Below are positions 3,776-32,566 of a DNA stretch of 64,000 bases, in pieces. The notes beneath the pieces are model-generated. The model was not told the DNA's origin and made no database searches. It was given only the letters and a program-made list of their open reading frames with translations. The position numbers were made by a program, and so were the translations under genes. Origin of the DNA: Synechococcus sp. PCC 7336 (GTDB lineage: Bacteria; Cyanobacteriota; Cyanobacteriia; Thermostichales; PCC-7336); contig NZ_CM001776.1 of the NCBI RefSeq assembly GCF_000332275.1, forward strand, positions 1,659,268-1,723,267. Reading direction: 5' to 3'. How positions within the stretch are numbered: the stretch's first letter is position 1; each line of letters begins with the position of its first letter.

Positions 3776-4666
3776 TTACGAGGGTGGTGCAGTACCTAAC
3801 AAACCAATAATGCCGAACAACATGCCCAACCGTTCCCAAATAATAAAACTGTCGTAGGCGATCGCACTGCGGTGCAGTTGATAGCGAATCAGAGCGATCG
3901 CCAAACTCAGCAGCATTGCCCCAGCAAAGACGGCAAACCAAAGGGGGCGAGCCATTGGCAGCAGGAATAAGGCGCTGGGGATGGAAGCCATCAGGGTAGC
4001 GATTGCCCCCCAGGCAATTCCAAATGCCGTTCTATCTCCCCACCGGTTCGCAATCGTCGTCACGCCGCGATCGCGATCGCCTTTCGCATCGTGTACGTCC
4101 CAAATAATTTCCTTTGCCCATTGATAGACAAACAAAAAGCCAGTGGAATACACCATCGCAAACGGTCGATGAGCCACCAATCCTCCGAATAGAATCAGTG
4201 CAGCAATCACGGCGGCCACGATCGCATTGCCGAGGATGCCACTGTAGGCAAGGATCTGCGAATAATGCCACAACAAGGGGATGACCATTGCGACCAATAG
4301 GAATGGATAGAGGCCGAGATGAAGGGCGGCGATCGCCGCTGTAGTAAACAAAGCGATCGCCGCTCTGCGGGCTTGTGCCAGCGAGAGACGACCGGAGGGA
4401 AGAGGTCTGTCGGCATGATTGATGCGATCTTTGTCTAAATCCCAATAATCGTTAATCGCACAGGCGGCTGAGTACATGCATGCTAGGACGATCCCGGCGA
4501 GTAGATAGCGATCGAGTGCCATAGCGGAATTGAGGGCATAGACAGTCGTGCAGCCCGCTAAAGCGGCAAGAATTGCTACGGGCAACCGAAACAGATGCGC
4601 AAACGCTCTGCTCTGTTCGAGCCAAGAATTTGTCGGGGAAGAAGATGGCACCACAATCGACCTCAT
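3776..4666 (-). CDS. UbiA-family prenyltransferase
   Basis: A 296-residue integral membrane protein with about eight or nine spans. The first Asp-rich motif NDYWDLDKDRINHADRPLPSG and the second DVHDAKGDRDRGVTTIANR are both intact; in this family they bind Mg-prenyl diphosphate and the acceptor. The ending of the first motif (DRPLPSGRLS) and the second motif resemble the geranylgeranylglyceryl/4-hydroxybenzoate/chlorophyll synthase branch, but I cannot assign the acceptor. Chlorophyll synthase (ChlG) and homogentisate prenyltransferases are longer and have different flanking residues, so this is likely an additional paralogue. The ATG at 4666 starts the gene; it stands alone, 45 bases upstream of DUF1622. 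Confidence 0.88.
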   Translation of the reverse strand: MRSIVVPSSSPTNSWLEQSRAFAHLFRLPVAILAALAGCTTVYALNSAMALDRYLLAGIVLACMYSAACAINDYWDLDKDRINHADRPLPSGRLSLAQARRAAIALFTTAAIAALHLGLYPFLLVAMVIPLLWHYSQILAYSGILGNAIVAAVIAALILFGGLVAHRPFAMVYSTGFLFVYQWAKEIIWDVHDAKGDRDRGVTTIANRWGDRTAFGIAWGAIATLMASIPSALFLLPMARPLWFAVFAGAMLLSLAIALIRYQLHRSAIAYDSFIIWERLGMLFGIIGLLGTAPPS

Positions 4667-5060
4667 CGCAAAGGACTGGAGGTCGCTTTCTCTATCTCTA
4701 TGATAGTGAGTCTAAAACTTGACAGATTGGGGGGTACGCTCGTCGCGAGCTAAGAGGTGGTTTTAAGAAAAAGCGATCGCCCTTGTGTCGCAGTGCGCAA
4801 TGGTTTAATCTTTACTGCAAGGCTTCTTTGTATGTATTTCTCTATAGTTGTCACTACTTAGCATTTACGGCTCTACCGGACCCAGTATGCTAGTTCCATG
4901 CCAAAGCTGCTCAAAGCCTTGCTAGCAATGGATTAGACGGTAAAACATACCTCTTTATGGTCAAGATCTCATGAAAGCCTTACCTAGAAGGGCTTTTGGG
5001 CTCTTCAGGGCGACGGACAGCATAGCCAGAACCGATGAGCCGCATTTACATAAATCTATA
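4667..5060. other. Intergenic stretch between divergent genes
   Basis: No gene is supported here. It separates the leftward UbiA gene from the rightward DUF488-associated pair. One HIP1 site lies at 4773-4780 and none follows until 6462. A TTGACA at about 4718 has no good partner box downstream. Bases 4973-4996 can fold into a hairpin (AAAGCCTT with a 6-base loop and AAGGGCTTT, one bulge), which falls on the first codons of the longer alternative start at 4971 and argues against that start. Confidence 0.5.
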
Positions 5061-5873
5061 ATGACTTATGAGACACGCAAGATTCTCATAGTTACCAAGA
5101 CTTATCCTGAAATAAGCACGAAGTACTTTGAGACCGTCTGTACCGCTGGAATTCTGCTTGATGACGCCGAGTGGCCTTTACAGTGGATTCGGATTTATCC
5201 CATTAGATTTAGGGAACTCGACAGCAACCAGCGATACGCTAAGTGGTCGATAATCAGTGCTGCTATTGAGAAGAATCCAAACGATAATCGGGCTGAGAGC
5301 TATCGAATCAAAGATGACTCCATTGAGATTGTTCGTCGTATCGACACTAGTAATGGCTGGGAAGAGCGCCGACAATATTTCGAGCCCCTGATTTTCAGGT
5401 CGATCGATGACATCAAAGCACAAAGCAAATCTCTTGGAGCCATCAAGCCCACCATTACCGGATACCTGTACGAAGAGACCGATAGAGATTGGCCTTCCGC
5501 TAAGCAGGCAATACTCGATCAAGGAGATTTATTTAGAGATGAAAATCCCTTTTCCAATTTAGAAAAAATTCCTTATAAGTTTTTCTACAGATTTACGGAT
5601 GAAGGTGGACTTCACAAATGCTCGATTATCGATTGGGAGATTGCCCAGCTATACAGAAGCATGAAGAGGAAGTCCGGAAAGCCTTCAGAACAAGGAAGGG
5701 AAGAAGAGGCACTAGAGAAAGTAAGAATCAAGTTGATGGAAGAATTTCTTCCTAAAGATCTGTACTTTCTTATGGGGAATATACGAAAATATCCTCAGAA
5801 CTTTGTTATCATTGGCATAATTTATCCTCCTCAAAGAAAGCCTCGACAGCTAAAATTAAATCTTTTGAGCTAG
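5061..5873 (+). CDS. Protein of unknown function, partner of DUF488 protein
   Basis: I do not recognise a named domain with certainty. From the ATG at 5061 it is 270 residues; an upstream ATG at 4971 would add 30 residues, but these are basic and unlike a folded domain, while the sequence from MTYETRKILIVTKTYPE onwards looks like the true core. Visible features: an early beta-alpha pattern (ILIVTKTYPEIS), WIRIYPIRFRELDSNQRYAKW with many aromatic and basic residues, a central DDSIEIVRRID, and a C-terminal KDLYFLMGNIRKYPQNFVI. There is no signal peptide or membrane span, so it is probably cytoplasmic; the many Arg/Lys/aromatic residues would suit nucleic-acid binding, which is only a guess. It is followed after seven bases by the DUF488 gene, so the two form one transcription unit. 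Codons are more A/T-rich than in neighbouring genes and no HIP1 site lies inside. Confidence 0.75.
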   Translation: MTYETRKILIVTKTYPEISTKYFETVCTAGILLDDAEWPLQWIRIYPIRFRELDSNQRYAKWSIISAAIEKNPNDNRAESYRIKDDSIEIVRRIDTSNGWEERRQYFEPLIFRSIDDIKAQSKSLGAIKPTITGYLYEETDRDWPSAKQAILDQGDLFRDENPFSNLEKIPYKFFYRFTDEGGLHKCSIIDWEIAQLYRSMKRKSGKPSEQGREEEALEKVRIKLMEEFLPKDLYFLMGNIRKYPQNFVIIGIIYPPQRKPRQLKLNLLS

Positions 5874-5880
5874 TTTTCGA

Positions 5881-6285
5881 ATGATAAAAGCAACAATTTA
5901 TACTTTTGGCTACGGAAACCGTAGCAACTACGACGATCTCCGATCGGCCCTTCTTGAAAATGAGATCTCTACATTGGTGGATGTGAGGAAGAATCCTCGC
6001 GGTTGGAGCGCGATCTGGGGTGCCAAGAAGCTTGCCTCCTTCTGTGACTCTCTGGGAATCGAGTATCTGTCAAAGAAAGACTTAGGAAACGACTCGGGCA
6101 ACAGTACTTGGGAGCCACCTGATAGGGCGTTAGCTGAGGCTGCACTAGTGGATGTCTCGAAGCTAGCTGAGCGTCGAAACATTTTGCTGATGTGTGCTGA
6201 AAAGGATTGGAACCGCTGTCATCGGGCAGAGGTATCTGAACGAGTCAAGACAATGGTGGGGGCTGGAGTCGTGCATCTTTCCTGA
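5881..6285 (+). CDS. DUF488 domain protein
   Basis: A 134-residue protein matching the DUF488 family: N-terminal IYTFGYGNRSNYDDLRSALL, then STLVDVRKNPRGW, and near the C-terminus LLMCAEKDWNRCHRAEVSERV, where the CxxxxxxxCHR pattern is the family hallmark. The first module resembles a small Rossmann-like fold in which 'LVDVR' ends a buried strand. Biochemical function is unknown; the conserved Cys/His residues suggest catalysis or metal binding. It begins seven bases after the stop of the preceding gene and ends the unit. DUF488 genes are found next to varied partners, some in defence-rich or mobile regions, so a genome-defence or stress role is a possibility but not shown by this sequence. 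Confidence 0.88.
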   Translation: MIKATIYTFGYGNRSNYDDLRSALLENEISTLVDVRKNPRGWSAIWGAKKLASFCDSLGIEYLSKKDLGNDSGNSTWEPPDRALAEAALVDVSKLAERRNILLMCAEKDWNRCHRAEVSERVKTMVGAGVVHLS

Positions 6286-6757
6286 TAGAGCGAAGGGGTC
6301 TCCCGCCTGCTCAAACCCCCTCCATCTCAGGCGAGAAAAGTATCACTCTCTAAATCTCAGCAAAGTTTATACGAGAACCATCATTTAAGGCTGCCATCGA
6401 GGGGTGAGAGCAAGAAACGGTCCTATAAAATAAAGGACAATCGCCCATACCTACTTCAGGTGCGATCGCCCCTGACTGATGCATGACGCTCTCGGTGGGC
6501 TAGGTAGTCTGTAGGCAACGAATTACATTGACAAGCCGTGACGCCTGACGAGTGGCCTGCATTCTCCGAACTAGAGCCAAGTTACATGAGCGGATGGGAG
6601 ACGGCATTCTTAGGACTTATTTTGCTGGCAATGGTCGGATGGGTCTTCTTTCGCGGTGGCGAGTAAATTCTCTGAGCCTTCCAGTAGTAGCGATCGCCCA
6701 GCCCACTGACCGGGAAGCCCCCATCAGCTAAGCTCGAAAAAACTGAGTAGGCCCGAC
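6286..6757. other. Mostly non-coding stretch with one tiny reading frame
   Basis: Apart from the 26-codon frame at 6586-6666 I see no gene. A HIP1 site at 6462-6469 ends the 1.7 kb HIP1-free interval. Open frames here are short and do not resemble proteins. Confidence 0.45.
6586..6666 (+). CDS. Possible 26-residue single-span membrane peptide
   Basis: The frame reads MSGWETAFLGLILLAMVGW followed by VFFRGGE and a TAA stop. It has a short polar N-terminus, one uninterrupted hydrophobic helix of about 17 residues (7-23) flanked by Trp, and a charged end (RGGE), exactly the architecture of the small photosystem, cytochrome b6f and NDH subunits of cyanobacteria (25-45 residues). I compared it from memory with PetL, PetN, PsbI, PsbM, PsbT, PsbY and PsaM and it matches none. 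No strong ribosome-binding site is seen. It may be an uncharacterised thylakoid peptide, or a chance frame. Confidence 0.4.
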   Translation: MSGWETAFLGLILLAMVGWVFFRGGE

Positions 6758-7018
6758 ATGGACCCCGAGATCGGAGAAGAGCTGGACAGACTGGAAAGAA
6801 TCGCCTCCCTCAATCTCCAGACGAGCACCAACAATCTCGAAGCGATCGGCCAATTGCGGGAAGTGCAAGAGCGATCGCAGAGGCAAATCGACCAACAGGG
6901 CAGACAGATCGGCCAATTGCGGGAGGCGCAAGAGCGATCGCAGAGGCAGATCGACTCACTGGCAGAATCGACAGCCCAACTCAAACAGGCGGTGGACTAC
7001 TTGCAGAGCAAGGATTGA
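6758..7018 (+). CDS. Small coiled-coil protein with a duplicated 21-residue unit
   Basis: An 86-residue, strongly charged protein with no Cys and no hydrophobic span. Residues 29-49 and 50-70 are near-identical copies, each starting IGQLRE and continuing with AQERSQRQID (VQERSQRQID in the first copy). Twenty-one residues equal three heptads, and hydrophobic residues (I, L, V/A, I) recur at heptad spacing, so the product should be a continuous coiled coil. The copies are 63 bp apart in the DNA with only a few substitutions, indicating a recent tandem duplication. The end, LKQAVDYLQSKD, extends the helix. Function unknown. It lies alone between a HIP1-poor segment and a broken pentapeptide-repeat gene. 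Confidence 0.6.
   Translation: MDPEIGEELDRLERIASLNLQTSTNNLEAIGQLREVQERSQRQIDQQGRQIGQLREAQERSQRQIDSLAESTAQLKQAVDYLQSKD
6844..6969 (+). repeat. Two tandem 63-bp units inside the coiled-coil gene
   Basis: Unit one runs from 6844 to 6906 and unit two from 6907 to 6969, both beginning GATCGGCCAATTGCGGGA. Each contains a HIP1 octamer (GAGCGATCGCAGAGG). The frame is kept, adding exactly three heptads to the protein. Confidence 0.9.
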
Positions 7019-31385: not shown

Positions 31386-31973
31386 GTGTTTGCTACCGAA
31401 ATTCAGCCAAAAAGATCCAGGCATCGTCATCAGTTACCCCTCGCCAGACAAGAGCAACGCATCTTTCAAAGGCAACAACTGATACCCCAAAGGGAGAATA
31501 TGCTCTGGCAAATTAATGATGGATATTTGCGAACAATCACCCTAACTGAAGCAGGAGAAATTCATACCTTGGGAATATGGGGACCGGGAGACATTGTCGG
31601 TATTTCCCTAAATCGTAATTACCCCCATCAGATGGAGCCCCTTTCAACCGTTAAGGCGACCTCGATCCGAGATGACAGTATCTTTGCAGGTCAGTGGTTG
31701 ATTGCTTATCTCGAACAGACAGAGGCATTACTCAATATTCAATATGAGAGTCTGGTTAAAAATCGATTGCTACTGTTTCTAAAATGGCTATCCGATCGAT
31801 TTGGACATTCAGTAGAGCCCGGACTATCGACGGGAATCCGGTTGACTCACCAAGAGATTGGCGAATCGATTAACACAACCCGAGTGACGGTTACGAGAGT
31901 CTTAGGCAAACTCCAAGAAGAAGGTTATTTAACTTGGTTCAATCGTTACTGTGTTTTGAAAAATCTAAAGTAA
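31386..31973 (+). CDS. Crp/Fnr-family transcription regulator, first of a tandem pair
   Basis: A 195-residue DNA-binding regulator: an N-terminal cyclic-nucleotide-type beta-barrel (MLWQINDGYLRTITLTEAGE, LGIWGPGDIVGISL), a connecting dimer helix (LEQTEALLNIQ), and a C-terminal winged helix-turn-helix reading LTHQEIGESINTTRVTVTRV with recognition-helix residues TTRVTVTR. The barrel lacks the Arg-Ser motif of cAMP-binding Crp. The start at 31386 is a GTG preceded by AAGGAG. The stop is at 31973 and the paralogue starts at 32003, so both are on one transcript. Target genes are unknown, but the hydrolase gene just upstream is a natural candidate. Length is normal for the family. Confidence 0.88.
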   Translation: MFATEIQPKRSRHRHQLPLARQEQRIFQRQQLIPQRENMLWQINDGYLRTITLTEAGEIHTLGIWGPGDIVGISLNRNYPHQMEPLSTVKATSIRDDSIFAGQWLIAYLEQTEALLNIQYESLVKNRLLLFLKWLSDRFGHSVEPGLSTGIRLTHQEIGESINTTRVTVTRVLGKLQEEGYLTWFNRYCVLKNLK

Positions 31974-32002
31974 CTGCTGAGTCACTGAGACAAACGGAAA
32001 GC

Positions 32003-32566
32003 ATGGTTGAGGCACGGGTGACTGGAGAGCGATGGGTCGCAAAAAGATTGACCTTTGGGAAGCGAGATCTCCTTCCTTGCGATCGCCGACTCGCATGGGA
32101 AATTGAATCTGGATACGTGCGAGCGATTGCTTCAAGCGATCGCGAAACTATCAAAGTGCTGGGGATTTGGGGACCGAGAGAGTCGATCGGAACCTTTGTC
32201 TCTCAGGCTCATGCTTGTCAGCTAGAGTGCCTATCTAAATTAGAGGCAAAGCCTATATCGATTCAGTCTCTCAACATGAATGCTCTTCTCAAAGGCTATA
32301 TCGAACAGACAGAAACCTTGCTGGGCATTGCTCGAGAGCGACATCTCAGTGCAAAGATCGTCAAATTATTCTCTTGGCTTTCCCATCGCTTTGGGACCCC
32401 GCTTGAAAGCGGCATCAGAATTGATGTTCCCCTAACCCACCAGGATCTTGCAGAGGCGATCGGCGCATCTCGCGAAGCTGTGACGCGAGAGCTACGAGTT
32501 TTAGAACAGAGTCATTCAATCGAATGGCAAAATAGAAGTGTTATCTTGCTAAAATCTGTCTTTTAA
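32003..32566 (+). CDS. Crp/Fnr-family transcription regulator, second of a tandem pair
   Basis: A 187-residue paralogue of the preceding gene. Common motifs are LGIWGPRESIGTF (barrel), YIEQTETLLGIAR (dimer helix) and LTHQDLAEAIGASREAVTRE (helix-turn-helix). The recognition-helix segment ASREAVTRE differs from the first copy's TTRVTVTR, so operator preference should differ. I start at the ATG at 32003; the frame is open 23 codons upstream, but that stretch overlaps the end of the first gene. HIP1 sites (32089, 32136) are present, unlike in many low-HIP1 genes here. A strong terminator follows at 32664. The pair probably arose by tandem duplication. Confidence 0.87.
   Translation: MVEARVTGERWVAKRLTFGKRDLLPCDRRLAWEIESGYVRAIASSDRETIKVLGIWGPRESIGTFVSQAHACQLECLSKLEAKPISIQSLNMNALLKGYIEQTETLLGIARERHLSAKIVKLFSWLSHRFGTPLESGIRIDVPLTHQDLAEAIGASREAVTRELRVLEQSHSIEWQNRSVILLKSVF

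Follow-up and report, generated by a model that had tools for sequence, protein, structure and literature searches.

Within a 64,000-nucleotide stretch of the Synechococcus sp. PCC 7336 genome (contig NZ_CM001776.1, positions 1,659,268 to 1,723,267; hereafter the window), two adjacent genes encode a conserved pair of proteins: a partner protein of 270 amino acids (5061-5873, + strand) and a DUF488 protein of 134 amino acids (5881-6285, + strand). The source genome is a single contig of 5.07 Mb. The reading we prefer, in which we place about even confidence, is that the pair is a mobile module in which a clamp-tethered, RPA-like adaptor brings the cysteine enzyme DUF488 to DNA at replication forks. 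The partner would bind single-stranded DNA (ssDNA) or DNA ends in the manner of RPA, and it would be hooked to the sliding clamp by a short motif in a disordered loop and a second short motif at the C-terminal tail. These hooks would be of the QLxLF type for the bacterial beta clamp and of the PCNA-interacting protein (PIP) type for archaeal PCNA. The partner would deliver DUF488 to ends or gaps in the DNA at forks. DUF488 is a small putative cysteine enzyme with a predicted fold near the rhodanese/protein tyrosine phosphatase (PTP)-diphthine-synthase group and probably performs phosphate transfer or similar end chemistry there. Mobile elements would carry the pair as cargo, most likely acting on the replication of competing DNA. 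Linkage, fold, motifs and placement were computed, and we infer clamp binding, ssDNA binding, a complex of the two proteins, the chemistry of DUF488 and the use in conflict.

Known names and linkage of the pair

The initial annotation, made from the letters of the window, identified the second gene as DUF488 and called its neighbor unrecognised. The DUF488 identity was borne out by Pfam (PF04343, 3.7e-16, 60.3 bits against a cut-off of 22.2). The partner turned out to be recognisable, as it matched three PADLOC models of PDC-M19B (best PDLC04508, 2e-69, residues 5-260 aligned to positions 3-264 of 269) and the PHROG family phrog_25907 (2e-50), which is labelled 'unknown function'. Neither Pfam nor NCBIfam provided a match for it at E<=1. 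The DUF488 protein matched PDC-M19A (3.7e-17), with the best stretch aligning only residues 4-72 to positions 149-216 of 294, and PDC-M45B more weakly. PDC stands for phage defence candidate, according to the accessible text of PMC11514479. By its match to M19B of the two-gene "phage defence candidate" PDC-M19, the pair is a member of an already named family. The term PDC-M19 was not found in the literature searched, and 'PDC' was not found in the accessible part of the PADLOC server paper.

Homologues of the partner were found in 21 of 291 cyanobacterial genomes, with internal stops in 3 of the 21, and in 23 of 72,556 plasmid records, 11 of which were typed as conjugative, Sulfolobus included. 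Among 50,697 named phage records, 7 carried the partner; all were Gordonia phages, and the same 7 were returned with three different queries. The first scan of IMG/VR provided 24 loci, and the family was also matched in two of 14 control genomes, those of Synechococcus elongatus and Methanosarcina acetivorans. Removal of nine near-copies at 80% identity reduced 51 full-length partners to 42 non-redundant ones; of these, 13 were from cyanobacterial genomes, 17 from viral contigs, 11 from plasmids or phages and one from an actinobacterial contig. DUF488 adjoined the partner in 41 of the 42, with DUF488 first in 20, the partner first in 12 and the two genes convergent in 9. The tree requires at least three changes of arrangement and, therefore, adjacency was kept while gene order changed. 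Five full-length homologues found later, with 46-52% identity to their closest counterparts in the earlier set, were all adjacent to DUF488 as well. The suggestion in the initial annotation that this is a conserved pair was thus supported, with a patchy spread on plasmids, phages and prophages, and the linkage was the opposite of the outcome named there as refuting it, a partner never linked to DUF488.

The linkage is one-sided. Nine of the 46 DUF488 places in 116 cyanobacterial genomes adjoin the partner (eight among 30 loci examined and one from the coordinates of genome G039). The other cyanobacterial DUF488 genes (L086-L102, L106) were mostly two DUF488 genes in tandem, which form a separate pair (compare PDC-M45). 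DUF488 genes of the same clade stood without the partner at L070:3339-3734, where the contig also carries a gene for a DnaG-like primase, and at L111:1432-1854, downstream of a helicase/relaxase-like gene. A shorter phage homologue of the partner, 229 amino acids long, lies just upstream of terminase-like genes (L135:4908-5597); no DUF488 was found within its 10.3 kb, and it has neither clamp-type motif. One cyanobacterial-type partner on an IMG/VR contig is split over two frames (L068:7902-8794). A distant blastn search with the Burkholderia partner gene found no match in E. coli genomes, which is a weak test at such divergence.

Predicted folds and clamp-type motifs

An AlphaFold2 model of the partner, made with an alignment of 20 sequences, had a predicted local distance difference test (pLDDT) score of 91.2 and a predicted template modelling (pTM) score of 0.87. 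All ten-residue blocks scored a pLDDT of at least 87 except for 151-160 (66), 161-170 (76) and 261-270 (62). Foldseek matched the model to 34 PDB chains at E<=1e-3, including RPA, LEF-3, CST, Teb1, telomere-end-binding and HIN proteins, and we take all 34 to be DNA-binding proteins with an oligonucleotide/oligosaccharide-binding (OB) fold. The same threshold gave seven matches in BFVD, six of them LEF-3 and one an unnamed granulovirus open reading frame (ORF). With VIA-align, the first OB domain, at about residues 1-95 (5061-5345, + strand), was aligned to PriB (3en2, residues 1-91, Z 6.1), an M. jannaschii RPA domain (3dm3, residues 1-95, Z 6.1) and RecO (1w3s, Z 5.8). The second OB domain, at about residues 107-259 (5379-5837, + strand), was aligned to the OB domain of RMI1 (4day, residues 107-264, Z 5.8); it holds the loop with the first motif as well as the conserved residues D191-W192-E193. 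The whole partner was aligned to RPA70 (1jmc, Z 6.3, root-mean-square deviation (rmsd) 4.6, 179 residues) and to LEF-3 (7yny, Z 7.4, rmsd 7.8, 187 residues). We read the partner as a tandem OB protein with two predicted OB folds over residues 1-259. From family resemblance, we infer that it may bind ssDNA. A sequence search of solved structures found no match for the partner or DUF488 alone, nor for the partner profile. The DUF488 profile returned 10 rows, the best being an alpha-amylase at E 0.062, and these were taken as chance.

Q-L-x-L-F is the consensus bound by the bacterial beta clamp and is often C-terminal, and archaeal PCNA binds Q-x-x-I-x-x-F-F, as given in the accessible part of PMC4549789. 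The accessible text of PMC3716654 gives the consensus as QL[S/D]LF and describes an internal motif, QLNLF of UmuC, and, for E. coli Pol IV, a motif of six residues, QLVLGL. The window partner has two candidate motifs of this type, QGDLF at residues 154-158 (5520-5534, + strand) and QLKLNL, of the six-residue kind, at residues 263-268 (5847-5864, + strand), both inside low-pLDDT blocks. Motifs were counted in 40 proteins, since L044 (stop before the tail) and L073 (archaeal, counted apart) were dropped from the 42. The five-residue pattern was defined as Qxx[LIMF][FLW], the strict pattern as Q[LIMV]x[LIM][FLW] and the tail as the last 12 residues. The 528 control tails, also of 12 residues, were the C-terminal ends of non-overlapping ORFs, not of annotated genes; these ORFs came from the same loci, encode at least 150 amino acids and may include those of DUF488.

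The loop held the five-residue motif in 35 of the 40 aligned homologues, compared to a mean of 3.75 and a maximum of 10 in 1000 shuffles. In the tail, the motif was present in 22 of 40 proteins versus 2 of 528 control tails, and adding the six-residue form raised the former count to 26. The strict motif was found in 13 of 40 tails and in none of the 528 controls. All 62 five-residue matches of the 40 proteins were at the loop or the tail (58 placed by script and 4 reassigned to the loop by alignment), compared to 17.0 anywhere in whole-protein shuffles. Among the five later homologues, the loop motif was present in all five and the tail motif in three.

PIP motifs in the Sulfolobus copies were foretold from the clamp reading before their tails were read. 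The loop of these homologues reads QATLDQYI or QATLEQYI, and the tail contains NVKLDDFI or NVSFDKFI together with SSGIDKWL or NYGIDRWL; neither protein has a beta-type match. The strict PIP pattern was also seen in two proteins of the bacterial set, at neither motif place. A search with a mixed alignment returned 19 loci, 14 of which repeated known contigs or near-copies, and the archaeal motif pattern was present in none. The archaeal partner had no match among the viral contigs.

The DUF488 protein was modelled with a pLDDT of 94.7. VIA-align matched the model best to CbiL (2qbu, Z 10.5, rmsd 3.2, 119 residues) and to diphthine synthase (2z6r, Z 10.2, rmsd 2.7, 108 residues), and the PTP-fold protein SsoPTP was a weak Foldseek match (E 1.4e-2). 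The window protein has every one of the invariant residues D34, R36, Y62, C105, E107, C113, H114 and R115. The initial annotation had pointed out a CxxxxxxxCHR motif, and this was found as C105-x7-C113-H-R, with no variation across two alignments, one of 20 and one of 23 sequences. Both C105 and C113, invariant in each of these alignments, are candidate catalytic cysteines, and the predicted active-site loop C105..E107..C113-H114-R115 (6193-6225, + strand) would have a catalytic role. Burroughs and Aravind 2023 reportedly placed DUF488, RapZ-C and DUF4326 in a rhodanese-phosphatase superfamily, alongside diphthine-synthase-like methylases. The same work is said to have predicted DNA-end processing in conflict systems. 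In 2022, that group proposed a role for DUF4326 in processing the phosphates of ADP-ribose products (PMC9503650, accessible part).

The DUF488 protein of the window is a short form of PDC-M19A. Long forms have an N-terminal extension with no Pfam match. On L040-L044, this N-terminus spans about 145 amino acids, is likewise without a Pfam match and has conserved K-W-A-F-L-L and Y-G-P-Y-S. DUF488 is fused to HTH_59 on L047 and to ParB_N and HTH_ParB on an archaeal plasmid of S. shibatae (L074:3933-4982), where the fusion is directly upstream of the partner. By their domain content, the HTH_59 and ParB fusions also appear to point to DNA. A DUF488-HTH fusion is listed as CTP-binding in the accessible part of PMC12704722.

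Genomic contexts and competing explanations

The pair was found in varied surroundings. L046, an IMG/VR contig of a cyanobacterial prophage, encodes a partner protein with the same sequence as the one in genome G037. On it, genes for a tape measure protein, two tail proteins, two endolysin-like proteins, the partner and DUF488 follow one another and are all co-directional. The pair comes after a GpA-type terminase on L056, L063 and L067, and a capsid gene is near it on L060 and L065. In the Gordonia phages, the pair (gp43 and gp42) is beside the immunity repressor and integrase. The L050 pair is flanked by a DNA methylase gene and a ResIII/endonuclease gene in a layout like that of type III restriction-modification, and a type I HsdR-like gene follows the pair on L055. 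Some copies are chromosomal with metabolic neighbors.

Neighboring proteins were scanned with PADLOC at a cut-off of E 1e-20. The scan covered 136 neighbors, namely 135 of 155 listed ones, with 20 left out, and one L055 protein added by hand. Among the 62 IMG/VR neighbors, 60 PADLOC families were matched, and methyltransferase, restriction and specificity models lead among the matches listed. The other 74 neighbors (73 chromosomal or plasmid and one from a Gordonia phage) matched five families with one member each: DndA, SspA, UzuA, PD_DExK and a desaturase-like model. These are mostly generic enzymes, and the DndA and SspA matches are probably one ordinary cysteine desulfurase. This tally speaks against a defence-island setting for the chromosomal and plasmid copies. 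The initial annotation had raised a possible uncharacterised defence or nucleic-acid modification module and had proposed a count of neighboring defence genes. The link to nucleic acids was supported by the predicted tandem OB fold and the clamp-type motifs, and the count of defence genes among the 74 neighbors did not favor defence.

Several observations weigh against the clamp-tethered adaptor. The sole exception to the linkage among the 42 partners, pSOG2, gave no match to DUF488 at E<=10 anywhere along its 25,960 bases, and same-clade DUF488 occurs without the partner on L070 and L111. Both tail patterns were missing in 14 of 40 proteins, and L007 and L051 matched at neither place, having only the near-misses SLELF/EESLF and ELSLF/EPDLF. 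The strict PIP pattern occurred once per archaeal protein, where shuffles gave 0.05-0.06 and p was only about 0.05. A relaxed PIP pattern, which was set after seeing the sequences, occurred three times per protein compared to 0.3 (p 0.003-0.004). The archaeal test consisted of two sequences that are 78% identical and are effectively one lineage. For the models, DUF488 had no Foldseek match in the PDB at E<=1e-3, none of 994 chains reached a VIA-align Z of 8 with the partner, and the Foldseek TM-scores of the partner were low (0.2-0.37). Since the Z values were below 8 and the TM-scores low, the arrangement of its two OB domains differs from that of known proteins. Finally, the 74 neighbors showed no defence enrichment against PADLOC, in a comparison run with no control neighbor set.

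As for what the pair is used for, one possible reading is a replisome-directed conflict module of mobile elements, to which we give clearly less than even odds. The clamp, common to host, phage and plasmid forks, would provide the handle, DUF488 would be brought to DNA ends, and beta hooks would have been swapped for PCNA hooks between bacteria and archaea. A dedicated anti-phage defence, which would sense an invading fork via the clamp and abort or block it, seems to us somewhat unlikely. The PADLOC listing as PDC-M19 and the place beside the immunity repressor and integrase in temperate Gordonia phages would fit such a role, as would a patchy and sometimes broken distribution (stops in 3 of 21 cyanobacterial genomes). 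The restriction-type surroundings on L050 and L055 also speak for it, but these are only 2 of the 24 loci of the first IMG/VR scan and could represent host sequence that entered a viral collection. Also, PDC-M19 is named in no paper of the literature searched, and the five singly represented PADLOC families among the 74 mainly chromosomal and plasmid neighbors argue against defence. Another possible explanation is that phages and plasmids use the pair on their own ends and forks, as a replication or repair accessory or as an anti-restriction helper. Such a self-serving use would suit the RPA-like fold, the conjugative type of 11 of the 23 plasmid records, Sulfolobus included, and the position of the pair among phage structural genes (terminase on L056, L063 and L067; capsid on L060 and L065; tail and endolysin on L046). 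However, co-direction with late genes is no proof of co-expression, and the pair is also chromosomal with metabolic neighbors and is freely lost or broken. We consider this use unlikely. So far, the genomic contexts favor neither the defence nor the self-serving explanation over the other.

Two further alternatives concern the proteins themselves. The QLxLF-type segments could dock DUF488 or another protein instead of the clamp, given that the motif is degenerate in part of the family. The short phage homologue on L135, with neither motif nor a nearby DUF488, fits either view, but the PIP-like change of spacing in archaea is expected for a ligand of the clamp and not for a ligand of DUF488. 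Docking away from the clamp is quite improbable in our judgment. A toxin-antitoxin system, in which DUF488 poisons the cell and the partner neutralises it, would be in keeping with two small genes side by side on plasmids and phages, and gp42 of Gordonia phage Nymphadora (NC_031061) is annotated as 'HipA toxin' in one record. This label is unsupported by Pfam, which found DUF488 in the gp42 frame instead (2.3e-29, Eviarto copy). The arrangement of the genes also varies, convergent order included, and same-clade DUF488 occurs alone. We regard a toxin-antitoxin system as very unlikely.

Until now, the only description of the pair was as an uncharacterised candidate for defence. If the clamp-tethered adaptor is true, the double clamp motifs and the PIP-like switch in archaea would place the pair at the replication fork. 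DUF488, a widespread domain, would become testable on defined substrates, namely DNA that carries a loaded clamp and has ends, nicks or gaps. The pair would also exemplify how a mobile-element system can target or serve forks by way of the clamp itself. The idea of a double clamp hook on a tandem OB protein that is paired with DUF488 is, as far as we are aware, a new proposal; no mention of it was found in the literature searched, which lacked most subscription papers and Burroughs and Aravind 2023.

Gene layout and relation to known systems

Both ORFs and the spacer of seven bases (5874-5880) are present as the initial annotation described them. The partner ORF has a longer in-frame form of 300 amino acids (4971-5873), whose 5' extension (4971-5060, + strand) is probably not coding. 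ATG 5061 is the better start because homologues start within a few residues of it. The initial annotation chose the same start, and its argument from a hairpin over the longer start is weak, since 15 of 200 shuffles equalled the stability of this hairpin (-28.5 kcal/mol, z -1.39). A scan of 4650-6800 found no sigma-70-like promoter or terminator at the pair; it found one promoter-like and one terminator-like site, both off the pair and fewer than in shuffles.

The partner is rich in basic and aromatic residues, as had been noted (K+R 16.3%, F+W+Y 12.2%). The claim of A/T-richer codons held for the partner, whose GC content at third codon positions (GC3) is 0.44 (z -2.2 compared to 56 other long window ORFs), and was weak for DUF488 (GC3 0.52, z -1.0 against the same ORFs). 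Seven other window ORFs also have a GC3 more than 1.5 standard deviations below the mean, and the GC content over 5001-6000 is 0.42. The stretch without HIP1 sites, which had been taken as a sign of recent arrival, does exist, with flanking sites that start at 4773 and 6462, but is ordinary; of the 104 gaps in the window it ranks 7th in length, and the longest measures 3.05 kb. Composition hints at acquisition of the pair, and the HIP1 argument adds nothing. Elsewhere in the window, at 31386-32566, are two more low-GC3 ORFs (0.42 and 0.43) with overlapping ends, A/T-rich as the pair is.

The closest named system is PDC-M19. The partner fits M19B over nearly its full length, DUF488 matches part of M19A, and the genes are adjacent. 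In contrast, the M19A models have 294 and 234 positions and include an N-terminal part that the 134-amino-acid short form in the window does not have. The PDC-M19 entry in PADLOC gives no mechanism, no OB fold and no clamp motifs. Models of ARPP (ARG and rhodanese-phosphatase associated protein) are part of Pfam. A Pfam comparison of the partner, bearing on the ARPP of PMC9503650, gave no match at E<=1. The DUF488 domain and the conserved cysteine loop resemble the rhodanese-phosphatase superfamily, and the model fold, near diphthine synthase and tetrapyrrole methylases, may do so as well. The L074 copy, beside its ParB_N-HTH_ParB-DUF488 fusion, is like the ParB-CTPase/DUF488-HTH fusion of archaea described in the accessible text of PMC12704722, but the window DUF488 is without a ParB part.

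The predicted tandem OB architecture of the partner is shared with RPA, LEF-3 and HIN proteins. Unlike these, the partner has another domain arrangement, two clamp-type motifs and a tie to DUF488, and its identity to them is 6-12%. IS1634 transposases provide a parallel for the motifs. According to the accessible part of PMC4549789, they are mobile-element proteins with a C-terminal QLxLF, and their bacterial and archaeal members have beta and PCNA motifs, respectively. The partner differs from them in having no transposase domain, in carrying two motifs, one of them internal, and in being paired with DUF488.

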